A DNA stretch of 64,000 nt from Viridothelium virens (lineage: Eukaryota; Ascomycota; Dothideomycetes; Trypetheliales; Trypetheliaceae). Positions 402 to 43,176 of this stretch are shown one piece after another; the first letter of the stretch is position 1, and each line of letters opens with the position of its first letter. The position numbers and the translations under genes were made by a program. Below the pieces are notes generated by a model. The model was not told the origin of the DNA. It saw only the letters and a list, made by a program, of their open reading frames with translations, and did no database searches. The stretch lies in the NCBI GenBank assembly GCA_010094025.1, contig ML991803.1:124001-188000 (forward strand), written 5' to 3'.

Positions 402-3400
402 ATGTAAGTATTACCTTAGATGAATACGTGACCTGACTTCGATGGCTGATATTGAATAGGTGTAAGTTCTGCTCGTCTACTTTCACTCAAAGTACGCGAC
501 ATCTGACTGATGCTACGTAGCGAAGATAGATAAGCTATCAATCAGAGGAGTCCGCTCGTTCGACCCCGAAGTCGAATCAATTATCCAGTTCTACAGTCCA
601 CTCACCCTCATTGTAGGATATAATGGGGCTGGTAAGACTACGATCATTGAGTGCCTCAAGTATGCAACCATAGGAGATTTGCCAGCCAAAAGCAAGACCG
701 GTGGCGCCTTCATTCATGACCCGGACCTCTGTCACCAGAGAGAAGTGCTTGCTCAGGTGAAGCTATCTTTTAGAGGGACCAATGGAGCTCGAATGGTAGT
801 GACACGAAGTCTCCAGCTCACCGTGAAAAAGACCGCACGGAACCAGAAAAAATTGGATGGCACTCTGCTTACGTCCAGAGATGGGGAGCGAACCGTCATC
901 TCTTCACGTGCTGTGGAGCTTGACGCCGTCATGCCGCGATACATTGGCGCCTCTAGAGCCATACTGGATTCAGTGATCTTCTGTCACCAAGACGACAGTC
1001 TGTGGCCCATGAGTGAGCCTATTCATCTCAAGCAACGCTTCGACGATATCTTCGAAGCGTCAAAGTACACCCTAGCAATCGATAATATCAAAGTCCTACG
1101 GAAGAACTACAATGAGGAACTTGCAAAATATAAGATTATTGAACAGCAAGCAAAAGAGGATAAAGTCAAGGGCGAACGGGCAGAGAAGCGTTCGGAAGAA
1201 TTAGACCAGGAAATGCAAGTGCTCCGCACTCAAGCTCACGATTTGGGCGATCGTGTCAAGGAGGCAACAGTCAAATCGGAGGGAGCATGGACCCGTGCTG
1301 CTCAATTTGAGAAGACTGTTGCGGAGCTTGAAGGCAAGCGCATCGAAGAGCGCGCTAAACGCGACAACGTGAATCGTTTGCAGCGCAACCTGAAGCAGCT
1401 TGACCATACGGATGAAGAACTACAAGACATGCTTGAGCAATACGAGGAGAGAGTGCGGACGCTGCAAGACGATCGCCAAACGAAGACCCAACATTACAGC
1501 GAGTTGCTAAAAGAGATCGAGACTCAGCGGAAGCACCAAGGCGAAAAGCAGAAGGAAATCGGGACCCACGAAGCACGGAAGCAGCAATTTGAACGCCAAG
1601 TCGAAAACCGAGAGAATCTGATCAAAGAAACTGCTCATCGTCACAATATTCGAGGTTTCGATCTCGATGTTACTGACAGCCAGATCAAAGACTTCATGGA
1701 GCGTATCAACAAAATGGCTCGCGACCAAAACGGGGCCCTCGAACGCGCTCGGCGAGAAACCCAAGAGGAACTTCAGAAAGCCCAGGCCACGCTTAGCCGA
1801 CATAACGAACAGAAGTCTGCTCTGAACCAGAGCAGAGAAAACGCCAGAATCCAGATTGCAGCCAACGATCGCAAGATCTCTGGCTTGCAATCTCAGCTAG
1901 ATAAAATCGAAGTCGATGAAGGCGGTAAGGTTGTTCTAGAGTCCAGCATCCAAGACGTAGAGAAACTTCTGAGAAAAGCCAAAGACGATTTTGCAGGGGC
2001 TGCGTGGGACGAGCAGATTGGCAGCAATGACGCGAAACTTCGATCTTTCGACGATGCCAAGGAAAGGCTCGATGCGGAACTCATCCAAGGCACAAAGCAG
2101 GCCAGCGAGTCTGCTCGACTGGATTACCTAAGCAAGGAGCTCAAAGACCGGCAGAAGAGCTTGGATACCATGGTAGCCGCTCACGGTAATCGTATTGCAG
2201 ATATTGTGGGTTCGAGTTGGCAGCCATCTCGCCTTGAACAAGAATTTCAAAATGTCGTACAGCAGAAATCTAATGATCTAAAAGACAGCGAATCTCAGCG
2301 GGACGGCACGTCCAAAGAGCTAGAACAGGTTGACTTCAGATTGACGGGTGCTCGTAATAGCCTGAAGAGAAAAGTTGAAGAGAAGAAGTCGAGTGAGCAG
2401 GTTATTCAAGACGCCACAGGAGAAGAACCCTCCGAATACTTGGAGTATGTTAGCAAGGTTGAGAGTGATCGTGAAGTCTTAAAGAGAGATGCCGATGGCT
2501 ATACATACATGCGAGAGTTCTACGAGAAGGCGCTGAATTACCAAGAGACACACAACGAATGCCGTCTTTGCTCGCGAAAATTCTCTGGCGCATCCAAGAC
2601 ATCTGATGTCGATAAATTTCGCAAGAATATCCAAGCGAAAATGACAGTCGCGGCTTTGCAAGGCATAAAGGAGGAGCTCGAAGGAACGGAGAATGACTTG
2701 AAAACTGCTCGAAACGCCTATCCAAACTACCAGACCTGGAAGCGACTCTGCGAGTCGGATATCCCGGAATTAGAGTCCGAGGTGCAACAACTGGACTCTC
2801 GCCGGAATGGCTTAGTCCGCAAAGTCGAGGAGCAGGATCAAACCGTCAGTGATCGGCAAGAAGCAAAGCGTGATGTAGAGTCTCTGTCTCGTACGGTCCA
2901 GAATATTGCCAAATACCTTGGCGAGATCACTCATTTTGAATCTCAGATGAAAGAGCTTGCTTCAAAACAGAAGGAGGCAGGTTTGTCCAGAGGGCTTGAG
3001 CAAATTAAAGATGAAATAACTCAGGTCAATGAGCAAGCGCGAACTGCAAGATCATCTGTAACCAAATTGAGTGCTGATAAAGAGCGAAGTCGCTCGCAAA
3101 TCACCAGTCTTGAGATTGAAGCGAGGGACGTTCGGGCAAAGATCAGCGATGCCGTGTATCAACTCAAGGAGAAGAGCAGCCTGGGTGGACAAATTGACGA
3201 GCTAAAATTGCTAAGTAGCCAGCAGCGCGAGTCTCGAAGCAATGCGGACGAGCAACTCCAACAGCTTGCTCCCCAGATTGAGCAGGCGCAGGCCAAGTAC
3301 GACGACATCAGTCAACGGGGTGACGAGCGGGAACGCGTCCTTCGCCAAGAGGCTTCACGCCTTTCTGACAGCGTCAACCAATTGCGCACCGCCAACTCAG

Positions 3401-4434
3401 AGATCGAGCAATACGTCAGCCGAGGTGGCCAACAACAATTATCTCGCGCAGTCCGCGAAATGGAGAGCATCACTGAAGAGCTTTCCCGCCAAGAACAAGA
3501 GCAACGAGACATCACCGTTCAGGTCAAGAGTCTTGACGACCAACTACGCAATACGGATGATACGAAGCGTGGGATCAACGACAACCTCACTTTCCGTCAG
3601 GACAAGCAGGCCCTCGAGAGCTTATGTGCACAGATTGAAGAGCTTGATAGCACGAATGCAGTTGCAGACAAGAAGCGTTACGAGCGTGAGGGCAGCGAAT
3701 GGCAGATGGAGCGCAACCGTCTCGCAGCAGAGCAAGCGACCATCGTTGGTCAACTCAAATCCAAAGATGACCAACTCAAGCAGCTTCTACAAGACTGGGA
3801 GACGGACTACCAAGACGCTGGGTATAAGTACAAAGAAGCTCATATCAAAGTGGAAACCACCAAAGCCGCGGTTGAAGACCTTGGTCGATATTCTTCTGCA
3901 CTCGATAAAGCCATCATGAAATATCACAGCCTGAAAATGGAAGAAATCAACCGAATCATTGAAGAGCTCTGGCGTCGAACCTACCAGGGCGACGATGTCG
4001 ACACTATCTTGATCCGCAGCGATAATGAGAGTGGCAGGGGTAACAAGAGCTACAATTACCGTGTCTGCATGGTCAAACAAGATGCCGAGATGGACATGCG
4101 GGGCCGTTGCTCAGCCGGACAAAAGGTACTCGCGTCCATCATCATTCGTCTGGCGCTAGCAGAATGCTTTGGTGTGAACTGCGGACTGATCGCACTTGAT
4201 GAGCCGACCACGAACTTGGACCGTAGTAACATCAGGGCGTTAGCTGGGAGTCTGGCTGAACTCATTCGCGTCCGGCGTCAGCAGAGCAATTTCCAGCTTA
4301 TTGTGATTACCCACGATGTGGAGTTCCTAAAAGAGATGCAGTGCCCCGACTTTACGGATTATTACTGGAGAGTTGGTGACGATCCAAACGAGAGGAACAG
4401 AATTAAAAGGCATAACATTTCTGAGGTCGCGTGA
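402..4434 (+). CDS. RAD50: RAD50 DNA double-strand break repair ATPase
   Basis: SMC-like ATPase of the Mre11-Rad50-Xrs2/Nbs1 complex, which tethers and processes DNA ends in the nucleus. Model: AT (402-403), a 2-nt exon GT (460-461), then 521-4434; the joined start reads MSKIDKL, the conserved Rad50 N-terminus, giving 1305 residues, the usual family length. Walker A (GYNGAGKT) is at residues 34-41; two long coiled coils flank the zinc hook C682-R-L-C685; the C-terminal lobe has the signature SAGQK near 1199 and Walker B ending D1228-E1229-P1230. Introns 404-459 and 462-520 both start GTAAGT, end in TAG and contain CTGAC. The long frame from 521 is certain; only the first two codons depend on the microexon model. 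No intron interrupts the remaining 3.9 kb. Confidence 0.96.
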
Positions 4435-6444
4435 GGCGAATAGTTACCTTTCCGCTGGTGTTGACGGTGCATAGCGCTAGGAGTGAGCTTTCAGACCGGA
4501 ATCGGCATTGTCTTGATGTAGCATTGCATGAGATATCCCAAAGTAGATAGATGATCAGTCATAGATCTACCTAGTACAGACCTGGTGAGCGTGTCTTTCC
4601 ATCCTGAATCTGGTGAATCGAACTCCTGTTGTGCAGCGTCCGTCCGATAAAGCTTTTGACGTTGTTCATGGTCTCAGGAGCGTTGCTTCCTCAATTCCAG
4701 CAACTGCTTTCTCTCCCTGCAAGAGGCTCAATCCTACTGAACATGAATATTACAGGTGACTATGAGATATGTCCGCTTGCTGCTGTTGAGGCGCTGTTTT
4801 GGATAGCTGGGCGCCGTTCTGTCCATTTTGTTGTGGGAAGCGGTCTCCGAGACCATATGGGGAGGTGCGTACCATGGGTATCTATTACCTTATTTGTACT
4901 AGTGTAGACCTACATAGTCCTTCTCTGAGGCTCCTCCTCCTCTTAGATTCTACACACTTCAATCTACAGATTTCACTTTCTACTCATTTGTCTAGTGATA
5001 AATTGGGTGTGTAGATAGGTGATGAGGTAAGTAGTGGCAGACCAATTTCCTAGTGTGTACGAAGTAATACCACAAATAGCACGCATTTTCTGCGCCACAG
5101 CCACCCTCCTGGAACGATAATGAGTGTTTCATACTACTGTCATCCAATTTCAAGCTACACAATTTCAAGTCGGGATTCAACGATCTTCCCACGCAATGGC
5201 CCCTTTACTGCTATCAACCGAGATTAGAGAGTACCTTTCAGCGATTCTAAGCAAGGAGAATAGTCGGTACAGCACAATTCCGTAGGACACCCTTGATCTT
5301 TCCATCGCGATATGCCGAGTGGTAAAATTAAGAGCCGGTTGACGTGCAGTTTGAGCCATTCGGGCAAGCGCCCAGCCACCCGCAAGCCAATCGCCTGCAG
5401 CTCATCATCCCCTGCATCGCCCCCCACACGACCAAAACTTGTTTACTAGTGCAGCGCCTGGACGGAGAAGCTCAGAAGGGCTAACAGGAGAAGGTCAAAT
5501 CCGAAGCCATCTATCGTTCACACAACTACGGAGTCTCCGCGTAGTGTCAATAAGACCTATCGGCACTGTGAGATCCTCCAGACACCACTTACGTCGTGAA
5601 TGAATGGAGAAGTCCGACTTTACTATTCGATAAAATCGGCAGGACCAGGTGATCCTATCCTATGCCCGATATCGTCAGCGGCGGAATGCCTTCATTGACT
5701 TCAAGGACATCCCCGACGTTGAGATGGGCAGACTTGGCGCGACGAACCAGGGTGTCGCTCGGCGAACTGCTCCCAAGTGCTTTGGATTGGACACCCTGCT
5801 CAGGCACATGCATGGAGAAATATGATGGCGAAACAATTGGACCAGGAAGCATGGACTTACCCTAGCAACCTTGAGTGCGTTTGCTGTGCTGGGCCCACAC
5901 GTCGCGGTCCACACCAAACACCGCCTTCATTAGAGCTAACCTGTATCTGCGAGTAAGGAGAGTCAGAGTCTTGCTGCTGAGAAGATGCCAACAAGGTTGG
6001 TCGGATCAATGTCTTATTTTTCTAAAAAGTTTTCGTGGTAGCTGAAAAAGACATTAAGTCGTGCTCGCGACTCCAAAAGCTGTGAAAACGGCTGTGACGC
6101 ACACCAGCATCCTGGAGATCGACAACGTCTATATTGTCCTATGAAGGCCTCGGAAGCTGGAGTAAGGCACGGCGCGCAGCTAGTATCCAGCCATTCCCGA
6201 TAACATAACGTCTCGTGCATAGGTACATACCTAGCTCTCGGTCCACGCACCATTCCAGTTGCCACACTCCCAAAACATTAAACGCTTCTCAACCTTACGC
6301 CTCCATCATTTACTCATCCCTATATCTTACCCTATACCCACTGCCAGATTCATTTGTTCATTCCGATTGACATTCGCTTGTCAATTCTACCGGCTTTAGC
6401 GCCGAAGTATTTTATATCTCCTGGGGGCTGGTAAATTTATCCAA
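4435..6444. other. 2-kb intergenic stretch, nothing recognised
   Basis: Short frames on both strands have no motif, no plausible splice chain and no repeat structure. The right end must contain the promoter of the GH5 gene. I see no tRNA or transposon here. Confidence 0.45.
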
Positions 6445-7843
6445 ATGATATCGAGGCCTGTCATAGCAGCCTTGTTGGCTGCGGGTTCTGCATTTGCTGC
6501 ACCGGCACCAGCGTATGTAACCTATTTTACTGTCTTTCCAGAATCGAGACTGACTTCATGCACAGAAGCAATTGGGCCAAAGGACTCGACTTTGGTAGTG
6601 TAGTCACACGCGGCGTCAACATTGGTGGCTGGCTTGTCCTGGAACCGTAAGTACCCAGCAAAGGTAAACACAGTACGCTTGAGAGACTTCGACTAACCTG
6701 ACATTTAGCTGGATCACCCCGTCCATATTCCAGCAGTTCCCTGAAAGCGACGGTATCGTTGATGAGTACACCTTGTCGAAGAAGCTTGGCAACCAGACTG
6801 CTCATGACCAAGTTCTCAAGCCTCACTGGGACAGCTGGGTTACTCAAGACGACTTCAACACCATCTCCAGCTACGGCTTCAACGTTGTCCGGATACCTAT
6901 AGGCTACTGGGCCTACGCCTCATACGGCGAGCCCTTCGCCAGTGGCGCTGCGCCCTATCTCGACAAGGCCATCACATGGGCGCGCAATGCGCAACCAAAA
7001 CCACTCAAGGTGATTGTCGACCTCCACGGCGCCCCACTATCGCAAAACGGCTTCGACAACTCCGGCCAAAGAATCGACAGTCCCGGCAAGCCCGGCTGGC
7101 AAGGCGGCGACTCAGTCAGCCAGACCCTAGAAGTATTGCAGACACTCTCCAGCAAGTACGCGACGCCAGCCATGCAGGACGTCGTCGTCGGGATCGAGCT
7201 GCTGAACGAGCCGCTCAGCTCAGACCTCGACCTCGACGAGCTGTACAACTTCTACCGGTCGGGCTTCGAGACGGTGCGCAACGTCAGCGACACGACGGTG
7301 GTGCTGCAAGACGGCTTCCGCAATGCCAACACGTGGAACGGCTTCCTGACGCCCAAGGACGGCGGCGCGCAGCACGTCGCCGTCGACCACCATGAGTATC
7401 AGGTCTTCAACAATTGGCAGGTTGCGCTGCAGCCGTGGGAGCACCGCCAGCACGTCTGCAATGACGCTGTCAACTACGGTGGCGCGGATAAGTGGACGCT
7501 TGTGGGCGAGTGGACTGCTGCCATGACGGACTGCGCGACTTGGCTGAATGGTTACGGCACCGAGTCGCGTTTCGAAGGCAAGTTCGATGGCAGCCCGGTG
7601 ATTGGTAGCTGTGGCACGGTTAACGATATCGCGACGTGGAATCAGACATTCAAGGATGACACGCGTGGATATATCGAGGCGCAGATGGAGGTGTTTGAGT
7701 CGACAACGCGGGGGTGGATCTTCTGGAACTTCAAGACGGAGAATGCGGCCGAGTGGGATATGTACAAGCTGGTGGACGCCGGCGTGTTTCCACAGCCTCT
7801 AACGGAGCGAAAATTTGGTGCGATTTGTACGACCATCTCGTAA
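6445..7843 (+). CDS. Secreted GH5 exo-1,3-beta-glucanase (EXG1-like)
   Basis: Retaining glycoside hydrolase of family 5 (subfamily of yeast Exg1) that trims beta-1,3-glucan in the cell wall. Exons 6445-6512, 6566-6646 and 6709-7843 give 427 residues, normal for the family. A signal peptide (MISRPVIAALLAAGSAFA) precedes an Ala-Pro stretch. The N-terminal RGVNIGGWLVLEPW motif spans the second intron. The acid/base glutamate is E217 in LLNEPL, and the nucleophile is E317 in VGEWTAAMTDCATWLNG. Introns start GTATGT and GTAAGT. GC content rises sharply from about 6950 to 7650. Substrate preference is inferred from the family. Confidence 0.93.
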
Positions 7844-8239
7844 GGTGGTGGAGTAAGAGCTGGAAAGGTCGAGGGAAAAGAATGTGTAATGATAACGCGT
7901 GGATAATTGGTGGTGAGGAATATCTGGCAACCAGGAAAACGGCAGAATTGTCCTGCTTTCGGCACACAGCGAACGACATACGATTCTTGACTTTCCTTAA
8001 TGTATTAGTGTTGGGTGGACGTCGGAAAGCAATCATTGGATTGGGATGTTAATGAGAGCCACGCGGGCCAATACTGGAAATTTGAATGGTGTATATGGTG
8101 GCTCTCCTTATCATAGGATACCCAAAGCCCTGAGTGGCTAGGATTTGGCAGATAGTAGGACAATATAAGGACCATCTGCAATCAAAGTAACAATACTCTA
8201 TATCGTCACTGTGATCCATTGCGAAGGAAGAAGAAAATA

Positions 8240-9010
8240 CATCCAGGGTGCTCCAAAGTGCCACCAAAGTCGCCTCGTTTTCGGTGAATGCGTCACTCGG
8301 TCACCATGAAGTAGCGGCTACATCTCTAGCTATTGAATGACACTTCAAGAGTGTGATCTGCTGGACATGTCTGTCAGGCCGATGCCGGACTTCAAGATTC
8401 TGCAGAACAGATTGTGTGCTCAACGCGGTTGGAAGTTTGGAGTAGAGACAATCAACTCTAATATATGCCATCTCCGCTCCGCCAACGCCAAAATTGCTGT
8501 GCACTCGACTGTAATTCGCCATTATTCGAGCCCCAAACCAGAAAGTTGCCAGAGTTGTAATATTAGAATATACGCTAGAACGAGCTAAGCGCACAGGCCA
8601 CTCGGTCATCCTCCACTGATGACCGAGAACAGAAACGCGACAGAAACGCGATGCTCATTCGACGAGTTCAGTACTGTACCATTCCAGCTTGGCTCCATAC
8701 AGACCTTGAGATTCCAGAATGGAGCGTATTCCTCACAGGAGCGACTAAGGGATTAAGAATGCCGTCCAGGAAAGCGATGTCGTACTGCTGGAAGTAGACG
8801 GCTAAAAGATTGCGCACTTAGACGCGTTTGGAAAGAATAACTATCTGCTCGCTCCCCATGTCGCTCCGCGAGCCTGGTCAGGGATAAATCTTCTTGCCGA
8901 GAGCATCGCCAAATTTCTACGCTCTGCAACTTTGGTACCATAGTCGACGTCATTCATACCCCTGATGATCTTGGGGAAATGAATTGCTCCACTACACCAT
9001 ATGCTCACAA
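8240..9010. repeat. Diverged tandem duplication, unit 1
   Basis: Two blocks recur in the same order downstream. Block A (about 8265-8508) matches 9005-9266, sharing words such as GCTCCGCCAAC and AAATTGCTGTGCA; block B (about 8618-9005) matches 9707-10060, sharing ATTGCGC, GAAAGAATA and CCGAGAGCATCG. Identity is visibly imperfect throughout, with many transitions, as expected of an old copy. No transposase was recognised, and no target-site duplication or terminal repeat is clear. Borders are approximate. Confidence 0.6.
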
Positions 9011-10085
9011 GTCACTTTGTCTTTCGTAGATGTGCACGTCGGTCGCCACAAGGCAGCGGCTATCCCTAATAAATCAGACTTCGAAGTGTGATCTTCTAGG
9101 AATACGAATTAGGCCGAAGACAGACTTTAAGATTCTGAGAAGCACTCGTCATATCGATGCGCTTGGAAATTTGGAGTAGTGTCTAGCGAAACAATCAAGT
9201 CCGAAAAATCCAAATTTGCCGGCCATTTCTGCTCCGCCAACACTAAAATTGCTGTGCAAGGGGCGACGCACCCCACGGGGTAAAACCGGGCGTACTAGCA
9301 TATCGTCAAAGCTTTCAAAATTATGATACGCGGTACGGAGGACGGAGTACACAGCCAACACGCGCTACTGCACTTCCTATCGGTGGACCCGAGTATGTAT
9401 GGCCTGGAATTAGGAGAGGAGCTGGGAGGACCCCTTTTAGTATCTAAGCCCCTGCAACTTCTCTTATTGGTCAGATACTGTGTACCTAACACCTCGCTGT
9501 TGCTGCCTCCCATCTCATCTAATTTATACCCCACCTATTTACTATAAGTGACAGATAAGTTATAGATAGCAAGAACCATACAGAGTAAGACAAAATTAAT
9601 GCGACACTAAGATTGGATGGGATGAGATAGGGGTTGAAGAGGTTTAGGTACTAAAAGGGGTGGGCAGATACTGTACATCTGCCCTGTAGGGTGGGCGGGT
9701 TCATTGTTGATGACCAGGAACCCCAATCAAGAAACGCGGTGCAAGGTTGACCCCGTCCAGACCTCTGTAGCATACCGTGGTGCCGTATTCTCCATTGGAG
9801 CGACCAGAGGATCATTCCACCGTTCCGTCTGGAAGTGAACGGGAGGATTGCGCGCTTATATGCGTTCGGAAAGAATATCTGCTCACTGCCCGTGCATAAA
9901 AACATTGTTCACGTAATAGCTCCGCCAGCCTTGTCAGTGACAATCTTCCTTACCGAGAGCATCGTCAAATGCGGTGCTTCCAAGTAAACTCTCTACTCTC
10001 TGCACGTTTGGTACAAAATCAGGAAAATGCACTCCTCCGCTGCACCACACCTTCAAAGGATACCATTGCTCTTTCGACTGTTGAC
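9005..10085. repeat. Diverged tandem duplication, unit 2 with extra segment
   Basis: Second copy of the 8240-9010 unit in direct orientation. Blocks matching unit 1 lie at about 9005-9266 and 9707-10085, separated by about 440 bp instead of about 110 bp, so either unit 2 gained an insertion or unit 1 lost sequence. A short word shared with block A, CTAAA-TTGCTGTGCAA, recurs at about 60800-60820. Confidence 0.55.
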
Positions 10086-10382
10086 TGGATCTTGTTGCCC
10101 AATCACAATGAACTCTGTCAATACCGTAACTATCACTGCACTGCTTACTGTCTCTGCAATCAGCTCCCATTGTTGGTGCGAAAAGGTAAGTCATTGTTCC
10201 GAGATGACTTTGAGATGTGGAATTTACGCACTCATTACCGCATGCGGCAATGATGCTTCGACACAAGATAAAGAAGTTCAAGGACAAAACCAGAGTCTAT
10301 GTCCATGGAAAGGATCTAGTTGTACTGCGCCTTTACGAATCGGATCATTGCTAATACGTCCAACAAAAATCTCTTCCACGAA

Positions 10383-13300
10383 ATGGCTTCTCAGGACAAA
10401 AAGAGAAAAGCTGACGCTGAGTCCGGTAGCCACGCCGATAAGGCTCTTAAAATTGATCTAGAGACAGAAGACCATCCGGCTACCGCCAAGTCAGCCAATA
10501 CAGCAATACCAACTCATCGAGAAGTTCTTGACAATTTTCTCCTAGTCAACCATGATACTCAGAATCCGGAACATCTTGTCCAGCTCGGGCAGAGTCGCGG
10601 ATTACGATTTCACGGTCTTCTCGAAAACTCAACACTAACCAGATCTTGCGGAGAATTCAGGACCAGTTTGCCAACTCGTACAACACGAGTGCCATATTGG
10701 ATGAGGTTCGGAGATGGAATCCTCAAGCTCCAAAAATTAGAGGGCGCTGGAACGCGATGAACGCACTGGCTCAGTGGGATCTAGGCGTGGAGCAAGATGT
10801 TGAGAGGGCAAGACGGTTGGGAGTCGAGGATCGTGGACCTCTGCCCGAAGACTCATCAAGGGAGGATATACAAGAGCGTTTAGGCAAGGAGCTGGAAGCC
10901 TTCCGCCACCTTTGTCAAAGCCGCGGTCTCGGAGAGCCCGACGTCCTCAGGCATGCCCTTGACCTCACAGAGATGCCGTTCCTCACCAGTTCCATTTTGG
11001 CTCTGGGTCTGCCTGTTCCAGCTCAAGTCGAGGACGCTCGTAACCTCCTCCAACAATGGGACATCCAAAGCGGAAAGGACCTTCAAACGCTTGGTCTGGA
11101 TCCAGAACTACTTGAACGCGAAGGCAGACCCCAGGTGTGGAGCCGTATTGTCGAAGCCTGTGGATCTGTGCTCGAGCAGGCAACTGCTCGGGGATACAAC
11201 GTTGACACCAGCACACGTGTGTATGAACTTGTTCGCATGCTGACGACCAGCATCATTGGAGATGGATATGAAGATTTGGTTGAAGCATGTCACCGGGTGG
11301 GGTTAAAAGCCGACGTCGAATCGTGCGATCTTAGGAAAAGATTGATAGATCACGAAAGGAGGATCCTTCTAGTGCGTTGTTCTCAAGGAACTGAGCAGGT
11401 GCATGCACTGGAGACTCTCAACGCTTTCGAGGGCACATCTGCGAGGTTTTCACCAAAACCAGCGTCTCCTAGAGTGCCAGCCCCTCAAATTGCACCCGTT
11501 TCCACCAAGGTTACTTCCGCCTACCCCGAATTAGGTATCGCTGCTGTTGATGAGGAGCCTTTCTCTCATTCTGCTTATCTCCAAGGCTTGGGCAACGAAC
11601 CAGCAAGCATCTACCAACAAAGTCGTCCAGAGTCTAGATCAGATAGCAACAACTCACTCTTCGACACTTTCGCCGCTGCATTCTTTCACGACCCGAATAA
11701 AGGGGCGTGGGTCCAGAAGGAAGCCCAGGAGATCTTTCACTTGGCTCTCTTCGGTCCGACTAGGTTCGTAGGAGGAGGCTGGAACTATGTGCGGCGCGTA
11801 CGACATGATTGGTACAGAGAATTCAATCAAAAGGCGGCCGCTTTTGGAGGTGTAAGTCTATGGGCTCAACTCTGGGATAAACAGCCCAGCACCATGGAAA
11901 TGGTTCAACTACTTGCCGACATATACCACATCCAGCTTGTCGTTCACTTCAGAACCAAGGATCATTACTGGGACATGGTAGCTCGAGGGCCGACGCAGCT
12001 TGAAGGCGCAAGAAAGCAGATCCATCTTATTCATTGGCGAGATGAAGACATCTGGACGGTTGCAAGACGAGTGACTCCTGGAGATACGTGGCTCGCAAAC
12101 TTCCCCAATCATCCACTTTCTCTAATGCCTCTGATCCCCGCGCCAAATTTCACAGACGGACTTCGTCCTGTACCACTAGCGAGGAACCCGAGCCGTGGTT
12201 GCGAGGAAGACTACCAGCTGGAAATGAATGATCCACCCCGTCTTCCTCCAGGTCCCACAGTTCAGGAAGGCCTCAGCGATGATGAGGATGGCGATGGCCG
12301 CAATGGTAGGGAAGAAGAAAAACTCGGTGATGCCGGTGAGGCCAATCGTCGCGCTATAGAGAGCTGGGCCGCCCATGTTTCTTCTAGAGAATCGGGCACG
12401 GATTCCAAACTGGACGAAGGGATTGAAGACAAACCCGCTGATAGAGCTACGATCAGTAAAGATCAGGGAGGGGAGAGTTTAAAGCCAGGTGATAACATGA
12501 GGGATACTAATCCCCAAGAACATATGGATTTGGGAACCTTGCGTAGTGGGATCGAGCCAACAGAAGCCTCTGAAATCGAAAAGTGGGATGATTCTGAGAG
12601 ACCCCCAGTGGAAAGGGAGATACAGGAGGAACAAGAGGCGCTGGGATTTCAAGCTGATACTGAGCATTTTGAAGAGAATACCGAAGTAAAAGACCAAGGA
12701 CGTGGTGGTAACGGCGATGAAGCACACCTGAACCAGCGCCATCATAGTGTAGTGGAAGAACAGGAATCTCCGCCGCAGGAAGAGCCGCGGGAATCGCAGT
12801 ATCCTCGCTCACTCTCAGACCCGCTGAGCTACTCAAGTACCAGTGGACCACGCATTCCAGGTCTCAGCTTGCTGAATGGCACTGACGAGGAGCCCTCCTC
12901 CAAAGCCGCTCCTCTCGAAGGTTCAGGACACACCTTCAAAGTTCCCTCCCCTTCGGAAGACGAACTGTTTCAAGAGATGAAGGAAGCCCCATCCTTGATT
13001 GAGCAAGCCTCGACCCAGGAATCCCACAACAGCAGATCCAGCGCGCCAAGCCCAGAGCCCGACCATCCCAGCCGGTACGAACGACAGCGCTATGCAGGCG
13101 AAGCCACCTTTGACGACGGAGCAATTCGCTTCCAAGGCCAGAGAGTGCCCCTCCACGACGAGGATAATCCATCTGAAAATGCCATCCAAAGAGACGGCCG
13201 TGTCGCAGAGGAAGACGAAGAAAATGGTGATGAGACACCTTGCACCTTGGCCGATTCCATTGAAGATGACGGTCGAACGGGCTATGCGGAGGACCTCGAG

Positions 13301-13492
13301 GATCCGCTGGACGACTGGCAAGATCGTACTCCGAGGACGCAGGAGCGTATGAATCTGGCCCGGTCACCGTTGCAGAGAGAGTTGCCTGTAGATGCATATG
13401 GCGACGATGGGTTTGGTGCACAAGAGTATGCGACGGGCCAGAGTGGAGAACATGAGAGCGAGGCGGGCTATGATAGTCTTTTTGGCGATTAG
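10383..13492 (+). CDS. Large uncharacterised protein with OTU-like domain and acidic tail
   Basis: A start at 10383 (MASQDKKRKADAESG) opens a frame that runs to about 10600; the long frame begins by about 10625 and continues without interruption to 13492 (over 940 codons). Between them three frames are partly open, so there is either an unrecognised intron or one or two single-base shifts. The first 650 residues look globular. Around 11625-12070 the pattern SDSNNSLFDTFAAAFF, followed about 120 residues later by IHLIHWRDEDIW, resembles the start and end of an OTU cysteine-protease fold, but the usual catalytic Cys (DxxxCLF) reads Ser. The C-terminal ~450 residues are acidic, Pro/Ser/Glu-rich and probably disordered. 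Function unknown; the OTU call is inference. Confidence 0.6.
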
Positions 13493-13994
13493 CTCAGACC
13501 AAAACCTAAAATCACGCGAGCCTTTCGCAATAGTGGGAAATTTAAAGAGGAAACAATGGTACGAGTGCAACGAGACTGTAGCCGAGTAGTTACGTAACTT
13601 TCAAGCTCCTATTAATCATGAATTTCTTTCCTCCTCTTCTTTCTTCGATTTGCGGAAAGAATTTTTCAGGGGCCGGATTTTTGGGTCGATCAATATGGTT
13701 CATGGAAGAGCCTACTGATCACTGAGCAAACACCAGCTGCTGCTATATCAGTCACAAAGGTCATACTTCTGATGACTTGTCACTGAAATACAAAGGATTG
13801 AGACTACCGCTCCATAGGTAATTCGTAGTCTTGAAAAAGTCATCAAAATGCGGAACCTGCCGGAAGAACCCGCCATCCAGCCAGGGTATATCAAGATACT
13901 CAATGCGCCAAACGCTAACCATTCCACAATGCGTCGAACGACTTGGCAATCGCCAGGGGCGCTTCCTTTCCAACGCCGAAGCAGTATGCAACGT
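13493..13994. other. Convergent 3' intergenic region
   Basis: Holds the 3' ends of the OTU-like gene (plus) and GCN5 (minus). Small frames here have no motif. Nothing else seen. Confidence 0.5.
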
Positions 13995-15409
<1,415 letters not shown>

Positions 15410-40608: not shown

Positions 40609-43176
40609 CTAGAGAATTATGTCCACAACGTCAGCATCTATATCAATGTCAATGTCTGCATCAGCATCAGCCTCGGCGTCGGCATCGGCTTCTGCATCAG
40701 CATCGGCCTCTGCATCAGCGTCAGCTTCAGCATCAGCGTCGGCTTCAGCGTCAGCGTCTGCTTCGGCATCAGCATCGGCATCGGCATCAGCGTCTGCATC
40801 GGCATCGGCGTCGGCATCGGCATCAGCGTCTGCGTCTGCATTTGCGTTTGGCTCCCCTGCCTCATCCGGGTCGAGATCGTTTGGGTCGACTTCCTCGTTA
40901 CCACCCTGATCCGCCGCGTTGTCCTGAATGGCCTCCTGCTCATTTATGGCATCGTTCGCATCCTGCTCAGCTTGCTGCTCGGCTTGTTGGTTTTCTGGGC
41001 TAGGATTGGCAGCCTCGGCATTCCTTGCCTTGAAGAGGGACATAATAGCGTGGCAAATCAGCATGGCAGCGATTCCATTGACCAGATTCAATCCGAACTG
41101 GATCCAGGTATTGGCTTTGGTGAGAATATTGGCCGTGGTGTCCGGGTCGGCTGACTGTCCGATTTGCCCAAAGAAATTGGATTTGCTTGGCGGGTTCTGC
41201 CCTTGTGCCCATGTTGTACCGAGGAATTGGGGACCAAGGGTTGGATCACTACTGGTCGAAGATGTGTTGATGAAGAAGCGGATTGCAACATTTTGCGCAT
41301 TGCCGTCTGTTGCTAGCCAAGACAAAGACTCATTTGCATAAGTCCATTTCTTGATCACGATACCCTTGTAAGTGACTGTCGTATTGGGTTCGGGATTTGC
41401 AACCACAAGTTGGCTATCTGCTGCATATTTGCCCGTTGCACCCGCGATATATGTATTGTATGTAGCGGCGAATTTCGAGAGGGGCGTAGGTTGGACGGGA
41501 TCTGAGCCATTGCTTGGGGATGGCTGGCCAACCTTCCCATTTATGTTAGGCTTCGTTGGTTTCACGGAGTTGGGTGACCAGTAGTATCCATAGAGTTGTG
41601 GGCCAACGTAAGCATTCTGGGGAAGTGGTTTTCCGTCATCGTTCGTTAAGACGCGTAAAAAGAGTTGCGCATTATACTCGTTTCCATCCGTTGTACCCCA
41701 AGAGAGGATACTTTGTGAGTAGATGGGATTCTTGATCTCAACACCTGCGACAGTTACTTTACCGTTGAGGATGACGATTAGAGGTCCGGTGGACCCTCCC
41801 GAGAAGGAGGTAGCGTATGCTGAGTCATAAATATCCAGATCGACGTTCAGCGCCTGAAGATACGCGCTATCCACAGCTTCTGGAGTAGTGTCATATCCTT
41901 GTTGCTTGAGCCAAGCGATGATATTTTGCTCGCCATTAGGGTCGCTTTTGTTCTTTTTCAACGTGGATGCCCATTGAGTGGCGAAAGAAGGATCTCTAAA
42001 TAGACGCTGTACAACTTGGTTGGCAACATCGTCTGCACTGGGTTGAAGCGCCTGCCGGACAGGAAACGAGCGACGAGTCAGGAGAGCTGCGCGCTCTGTT
42101 TGAGTAAGATCGCTGTCGTATGGTATCAGGAATTTATCTGGGTTGGCTTTAAATTTTGCCGCTGCCCTTGGATCGCTACCAAGACGGTATAGTAGATCGA
42201 ACATTGGCTGAGAGGCTCGCACTCGCTTATACCATGCTGGGTCCTTATGCTTGTCTAACTCATCGATAGCCACTCGTTCCCGAGGACCATAGGGATCTTC
42301 TGGCATTGTAAGTCTGCCAAAGTTGCGGCTTTTAGCACCCTGTTGCACTTTAAGGCCAAGCTTCTTCGCGGCCGAAGGAGATGGCTGAACGTCATGTTTG
42401 GGAGGGATGTAGAAGGTCGAGATGCCAGTAACACGCCTTGCATTCCGTGATTTCTTGAGAGCTCCAAGTGTTAAGAAGTCGATGGTAGGTTCAACAGTGG
42501 CCATGCTTGGGGCTATATAATGAACGAGACGATGACCCGAGCCGTAAACTTCAGTCAATTTCTCGAGAAGAACATGTAGTTTAGTGTTCTTGAAGCCTTG
42601 GGGATGAAAACCGCTATCGCCAACGATTCCCACTTGGAAAATGATCAGGTGGCTTCCTGTGTTGATAGGTCGATTTCTCAAAAGAAGGTCTGTGGCCTCG
42701 ATTGTTTGGCAGCCAGAAGTCGAAGGATCAATGCCAACATCGGCAAATAGACAGGCTTCTGCAGAAATTCCTGGAAGCATGAAGGCTTGATGACCCTCTT
42801 GGCGAGCAATTGCGATTGCACGGTGGGACGGGTTGACAAAGATACCTGGGTGTCCGTAAAACACGCCAACGACATAAAACCCATTACGTACTTCGCGAAG
42901 CATTCTCTCCGCCATTTGGACGTAAGTATGGTATCTTGGCTTGCCAATATCGTACAAATTGTACATATCGACAGCGTTGGCATTTCGTGAATGGATGAAG
43001 GCAGCCGTAGTCATATCGGCTACCACAAAGAACACCTTATCGGCTTGTTCGATGTGTCCAATGGCTTCGAGAGTAAGATGTGCAATACTTTTGATCCCGG
43101 AACCCACCATTACCAGTCGGCCAGGACGGTATCCGGCGACAGGTAGTTTGGAACGGTCAGAAGTAGAAGGTGCCAT
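40609..43176 (-). CDS. Borosin-type peptide alpha-N-methyltransferase precursor, extended
   Basis: Uninterrupted 855-residue frame. Residues ~18-260 are a tetrapyrrole-methylase-fold SAM methyltransferase closely matching, from memory, OphMA of omphalotin, which methylates its own C-terminal backbone. Y72, Y75, R81 and Y85 show the spacing of OphMA Y63, Y66, R72 and Y76; [17 protein letters not shown] (104-120), [13 protein letters not shown] and STFYIPPK also agree. Residues ~295-378 match the OphMA clasp ([19 protein letters not shown]). After that it differs: 380-445 resembles a Nif11 leader ([16 protein letters not shown]); 450-555 and 570-676 are a duplicated domain ([28 protein letters not shown]); 691-715 is hydrophobic; 716-776 is acidic and Gln-rich; 777-848 is an Asp/Glu-Ala repeat; the end is ADVVDIIL. 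No OphMA-like core is obvious, so the modified segment, if any, is unknown. Activity is inferred. Confidence 0.85.
40630..40848 (-). repeat. Hexamer-based minisatellite encoding (Asp/Glu-Ala)n
   Basis: On the plus strand the block is variants of GCATCA, GCGTCG, GCTTCA and GCATCT in tandem, with an 18-bp higher-order unit in its left part. In the gene frame it encodes alternating Asp-Ala, then Asp-Ala-Asp-Ala-Glu-Ala units, then Asp-Ile. Synonymous variation between units shows selection on, or age of, the peptide. Several other frames stay open across it, including a Ser-Ala frame on the plus strand, which is a by-product of the repeat. Confidence 0.9.

Follow-up and report, generated by a model that had tools for sequence, protein, structure and literature searches.

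The borosin gene found in the 64,000-nucleotide stretch of Viridothelium virens DNA analysed here (the window) appears to encode a fungal borosin of a known, little-studied kind common to fungi and bacteria, with a predicted core that is unusually long and regular. Our preferred reading, to which we assign a probability of about 0.8, is that the product is a type III fused borosin that would methylate its own alternating tail, judging from its sequence and by analogy with KchMA. In type III borosins, which were first reported from fungi, the core is fused to the enzyme and has acidic residues in alternation with others (PMC11395268). KchMA is a bacterial type III fused borosin from Kitasatospora cheerisanensis, described as self-methylating, with as many as 11 methyl groups placed in its residues 742-796 (PMC11395268). 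The V. virens protein has the KchMA-like layout, with the same order of parts, a conserved active site, and an alternating tail (Table 1). Its candidate core lies at the C-terminus, distant from the clasp, and alternates acidic and other residues in an unbroken run of 71. The type I arrangement is absent: after residue 380, the modeled chain continues with folded parts and no short hydrophobic core follows.

Table 1. Features of the V. virens borosin gene, in window positions
Feature	Residues	Position	Strand	Basis
Whole coding frame, 855 codons + stop		40609..43176	minus	ORF reading
SAM-dependent peptide alpha-N-methyltransferase domain (PF00590, OphMA-like)	17-275	42352..43128	minus	Domain and PDB-chain matches
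Clasp region as in OphMA/dbOphMA	276-380	42037..42351	minus	Aligned to dbOphMA to residue 381
Helical bundle	381-446	41839..42036	minus	Structure model of residues 381-744
8-stranded module 1 (barrel-like)	452-549	41530..41823	minus	Structure model; duplicate of module 2
8-stranded module 2 (barrel-like)	571-672	41161..41466	minus	Duplicate of module 1
Long helix, hydrophobic around 694-716	678-723	41008..41145	minus	Structure model and hydropathy
Acidic linker	744-779	40840..40947	minus	Composition
Predicted core	780-855	40612..40839	minus	Alternation; same position as KchMA 742-796

Coding frame

The frame described in an earlier note on this DNA was borne out, as it is open from ATG to TAG as a single frame of 855 codons (40609-43176, minus strand), and its lack of introns, also claimed there, finds support in matches that run colinearly as far as residue 768 in relatives, including bacteria. 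The excess over OphMA needs correction: the figure of ~475 residues holds for the part after the clasp, whereas the whole protein, of 92 kDa, exceeds OphMA (416 residues, entry P0065) by ~440. For residues 1-744, the sole match in the V. virens genome (E<=0.01) is the gene's own place. Codon usage resembles that of the neighbouring genes (correlation 0.93), which makes a very recent acquisition unlikely but says nothing of older ones. The protein-database model of this gene, P0048 (295 aa), spans residues 92-386 only, so that the modules and the core are missing from it.

Methyltransferase domain and active site

Residues 17-381 aligned to PDB chains of dbOphMA and OphMA with a best E value of 1.4e-104 (dbOphMA ~1e-104, OphMA ~1e-99; range ~1e-104 to 1e-98), confirming the OphMA-type methyltransferase and clasp that had been proposed. 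The four residues assigned to the catalytic set, Y72, Y75, R81, and Y85, were all present and were invariant across a 33-sequence alignment. In PMC11395268, nine residues of KchMA are named as pivotal; when the start of the KchMA frame was chosen so as to put Thr at 747, all nine fitted. Eight of them are identical in V. virens (Y72, Y75, R81, Y85, Y107, S138, Q181, and F190), and the single departure is C49 of KchMA, which is V51 here; the active site is retained. In KchMA, which was expressed in E. coli, the exchanges R79A, Y83F, and S136A lowered activity (PMC11395268); the V. virens counterparts of these residues are R81, Y85, and S138. The OphMA/dbOphMA match, the clasp, and the active-site residues together support the earlier proposal of a catalytically plausible, borosin-type backbone N-methyltransferase.

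The earlier note had also raised an ordinary small-molecule tetrapyrrole methylase, which here would carry unrelated C-terminal domains. PF00590 is indeed present, but we consider this explanation extremely improbable: siroheme and cobalamin models scored far under their cut-offs (e.g., cobA_cysG_Cterm, 12.3 vs 185 bits), the borosin active-site residues and clasp are in place, and the V. virens genome holds two other PF00590 loci that could do housekeeping.

Middle part

The predicted structure of residues 381-744 had a mean pLDDT of 90.9. The two barrel-like modules (452-549 and 571-672) might have a lipocalin/calycin-like fold. Likeness between the clasp and the helical bundle was no greater than that of shuffled sequences. 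No free-standing family of modules was found at E<=0.001 (query residues 446-712, 372 candidates), nor did the model of residues 381-744 match any viral structure at E<=0.001. Hydropathy of the long helix averaged 1.75 over 19 residues at 696, and the same stretch reached 1.9-2.0 in the Erwinia (L005) and Spirochaetaceae (L006) relatives and in P0001 and P0002. Membrane anchoring by this helix is a guess, because the hydrophobic stretch is weaker in KchMA (1.53) and is absent from the top hydropathy windows of the Halothermothrix relative (L009).

The earlier note took the C-terminal modules as a possible pointer to a new kind of substrate. This view is not supported, as the same order of parts occurs in KchMA, and it is further countered by the presence of the layout in three other bacterial genomes and in P0001 and P0002. 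The C-terminal half is therefore not a new design, given that a characterised type III enzyme has the same layout.

Alternating tail

Acidic and non-acidic residues alternate without a break over the 71 residues 780-850, first as (Ala-Asp/Glu)n and then as Ile/Ala/Val with Asp, the chain ending in DVVDIIL; residues 780-840 comprise 31 Ala, 24 Asp, and 6 Glu. The genome scan returned a K. cheerisanensis locus (L007) that contains KchMA as an ORF, and KchMA residues 742-796 are an Asp/Val/Ile stretch in the position equivalent to this tail. Owing to the unbroken alternation and to its sharing the position of the methylated KchMA stretch, the tail is the probable core, which the earlier note did not identify. 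The last Lys or Arg is residue 718, so the tryptic mass spectrometry suggested in that note would not open the core.

The 30 six-base units of residues 780-840 carry 33 departures from consensus, every one at a third codon position, although the lack of departures at first and second positions follows from the way the stretch was picked, by its protein pattern. Judging by these counts, the repeat is of sufficient age for many third-position changes to have built up beneath its protein pattern. Among 107 rows compared (the V. virens protein, other proteins, and locus frames of at least 470 residues, some rows overlapping), the V. virens protein has the longest strict every-second-residue acid stretch. 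A strict periodicity rule identified a periodic acid stretch in 11 of the 107 rows, with KchMA outside the 11.

Relatives in fungi and bacteria

Along almost its full length, the V. virens protein is 52% and 49% identical to P0001 and P0002, the closest relatives that are themselves full-length; their tails are Thr/Asp-rich and less regular. Among 45 bacterial loci in the genome scan, six had rows past query residue 650 (L005-L009 and L014); for L014 (Niveispirillum), the best segment of a 526-residue frame covers residues 3-368, and the far piece is presumably a repeat match. The layout is common to the V. virens protein and those of Erwinia phyllosphaerae (L005; 45% identity over residues 14-768; tail (AAE)n to (VAE)n), a Spirochaetaceae MAG (L006; 42% identity; (EAA)n to (EVA)n), and a Halothermothrix MAG (L009; 36% identity; (QQE)n to (AEQ)n to (EAV)n). 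These three tails are long and V/I-rich at the end, with acids at every third residue versus every second in V. virens. By eye, the Desulforamulus protein (L008) has more module copies, and it lacks a periodic acid tail. Halothermothrix carries tandem copies (6311-10429 and 10882-14979) whose bodies are identical at 1203 of 1242 aligned residues and whose tails differ in repeat number. In the bacterial tails, third-position counts were made on stretches selected for their constant residues and indicate no more than a build-up of silent changes.

Of 39 relatives in which a module was matched, 24 end fewer than 80 residues beyond it, among them P0015 (169-kb contig) and P0023 (103-kb contig). 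Not every module-bearing relative therefore has a fused core. Module enzymes that lack one seem to exist, and acidic residues went unmethylated in the engineered KchMA-TEV (PMC11395268), in which they are poor substrates. Both points would suit an enzyme acting in trans on another protein, like split borosins, with the acidic tail serving for charge or solubility. We nevertheless judge this quite unlikely, since KchMA, with the same layout, is reported to methylate its own alternating tail (PMC11395268), and because the alternation here is unbroken over 71 residues and bacterial relatives have periodic tails that differ in letters and spacing.

In a tree built from 57 rows of the methyltransferase domain, the V. 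virens protein grouped with P0062 (91/96) and then with P0001 and P0002 (83/85); the basidiomycete type I proteins stood apart, joined to a protein from Dactylella (92/88). The tree leaves the order at its base open and so neither demonstrates nor rules out a transfer between bacteria and fungi. As for viral relatives, 20 pattern matches in viral_contigs yielded 0 confirmed cases.

Several relatives carry additional parts. N-terminal domains vary, with Fic in the Spirochaetaceae frame L006:946-4152 (26.5 bits, cut-off 24) and beta/gamma crystallin in the Halothermothrix frame L009:6311-10429 (59.8 bits, cut-off 25); P0003 has a propeller-like N-terminal repeat, for which PF24067 (beta-propeller; 23.5 vs cut-off 27 bits) is a lead only, and by eye the N-terminal domains of P0004-P0006 differ too. 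A second, shorter, acid-rich alternating stretch, seen by eye ahead of the methyltransferase in the L005 frame 6410-9433, the L006 frame 946-4152, and P0006, could be another core or a linker. The Erwinia copy adjoins a primase-helicase gene (L005:9610-11928; Zn_Ribbon_Prim, D5-type, Toprim_3), as in mobile elements. Two Xenorhabdus proteins (L010 and L011) have neither modules nor a long tail, and their clasp runs straight into a short Erwinia-like linker. Fused enzymes of Azospirillaceae/Rhodospirillaceae type (L013, L014, L015, L017, L018, L021, L025, L027, L038, and L048) also lack modules and end in other tandem repeats (e.g., EQHDAT-, EEHVAT-, and VQDQNVSTED-like units), which are probably further core types. 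A marine eukaryote transcript (P0133, MMETSP) encodes a related methyltransferase whose C-terminal half has repeated Val-rich patches, suggesting that fused borosins occur in protists.

Genomic surroundings

The gene sits between one for a GH31 alpha-glucosidase (~37-40 kb) and one for a cysteinyl-tRNA synthetase (~46-48.5 kb); at a greater distance, the window contains genes of transporter, O-methyltransferase, Dsk2-like, and homeobox type. This gene content looks fungal (TRI12-type transporter, GH31, homeobox KN, CTLH/RING), as determined by a Pfam scan of 20 of the 40 ORFs of at least 150 residues, borosin frame aside. The prolyl-oligopeptidase propeller PF02897 had no match in the V. virens genome, while the control search matched in 5 of 14 genomes. 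All 11 genome places listed for PF00326 (S9) fell outside C33:124001-188000, and so did all of the at least 110 places listed for P450, a lower bound with 92 of 197 candidates scored; one of the P450 places lay elsewhere on the same contig (C33). These peptidase and P450 searches covered six frames without introns and can miss intron-split genes. The gene thus seems to stand alone, without a peptidase partner. Ten neighbour ORFs at three bacterial loci shared no family except the tandem copy itself.

That neither a release enzyme nor a conserved partner gene was seen, and that the automatic model P0048 covers so little of the protein (residues 92-386 only), could point to an inactive or decaying borosin relic. 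We regard decay as very unlikely, however, in view of the 855 open codons, the retained active site, the neighbour-like codon usage, and a repeat, albeit one picked by its pattern, that combines many third-position changes with an intact protein pattern.

Proposed mechanism and significance

In the self-methylation that we favor, a SAM-dependent enzyme with its clasp, probably a head-to-tail dimer as in OphMA, would methylate backbone amides of its own C-terminal tail (~780-855). Methylation would fall mainly on the non-acidic Ala and on the Ile/Val close to the end, perhaps reaching one amide in two. The parts between clasp and linker (helical bundle, both modules, and long helix) would act as an enzyme scaffold that holds, orients, or anchors the tail. 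The three bacterial relatives that keep both the layout and periodic acid tails argue for this reading. Several observations count against it: the tested methyltransferases have primarily hydrophobic cores (PMC11285071), whereas this one is less hydrophobic and far richer in acid; the acidic residues of KchMA-TEV were unmethylated (PMC11395268); the P0001 and P0002 tails are less regular; the KchMA tail fails the strict periodicity rule; 24 of 39 module-bearing relatives lack a long extension; no release enzyme was found; and the hydrophobic stretch of the helix is weaker in KchMA and missing from the highest-scoring windows of L009.

Possibly, though this is unlikely, the tail is never released and forms a self-made polymer held on the membrane or surface. 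A poly(Asp-N-methyl-Ala) strand would then sit on the long hydrophobic helix and the two barrel-like modules. In designed N-methyl peptides, methylation of every second amide caps one strand edge, giving protease-resistant strands that pair but do not stack into sheets. Rather than giving rise to a small molecule, the protein would modify itself for a structural or adhesive role, and its lineage would decide whether the acids recur at a spacing of 2 or of 3. The Fic and beta/gamma-crystallin extras of bacterial relatives, together with the lack of a visible peptidase partner, would fit such retention.

Because the V. virens protein combines the longest strict alternating core with no matching peptidase found, it offers a direct way to test if methylation keeps to a constant spacing of residues and if the core is set free or retained. 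The comparison further sets the core apart from enzyme-associated parts, namely the modules, which 24 of 39 relatives have with no long C-terminal extension behind them. If the enzyme N-methylates poly(Ala-Asp), it would be useful for making protease-resistant peptides.

Comparison with known borosins

With OphMA and dbOphMA (type I; omphalotin and dendrothelin), the V. virens protein shares the methyltransferase and clasp. It differs in that their short hydrophobic core lies right behind the clasp, whereas ~400 further residues and an acidic core follow here, in its separate place in the tree, and in a genome without a PF02897 peptidase match. An omphalotin-type cluster was rejected on the basis of this tree place and of the lack of a PF02897 match in the genome and of PF00326 or P450 matches in the window among those listed. 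SonM-type split borosins (type IV) have the same methyltransferase fold (PDB 7ltc family, E ~1e-39); their precursor is a separate protein (PMC11285071), whereas the candidate core is fused here. AboMA, named in PMC11395268 as the typical fungal type III borosin, likewise has a fused core. In the literature surveyed, KchMA is the one bacterial type III borosin characterised and AboMA the fungal reference, with a natural product reported for neither. The closest parallel in layout is KchMA, which has the same order of methyltransferase, clasp, helical part, two modules, linker, and acid-alternating tail and shares eight of the nine named active-site and SAM-site residues; it is bacterial and not fungal, is 37% identical over residues 12-662, and has an irregular Asp/Val/Ile-based tail in contrast to the (Ala-Asp/Glu)n tail of V. 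virens.
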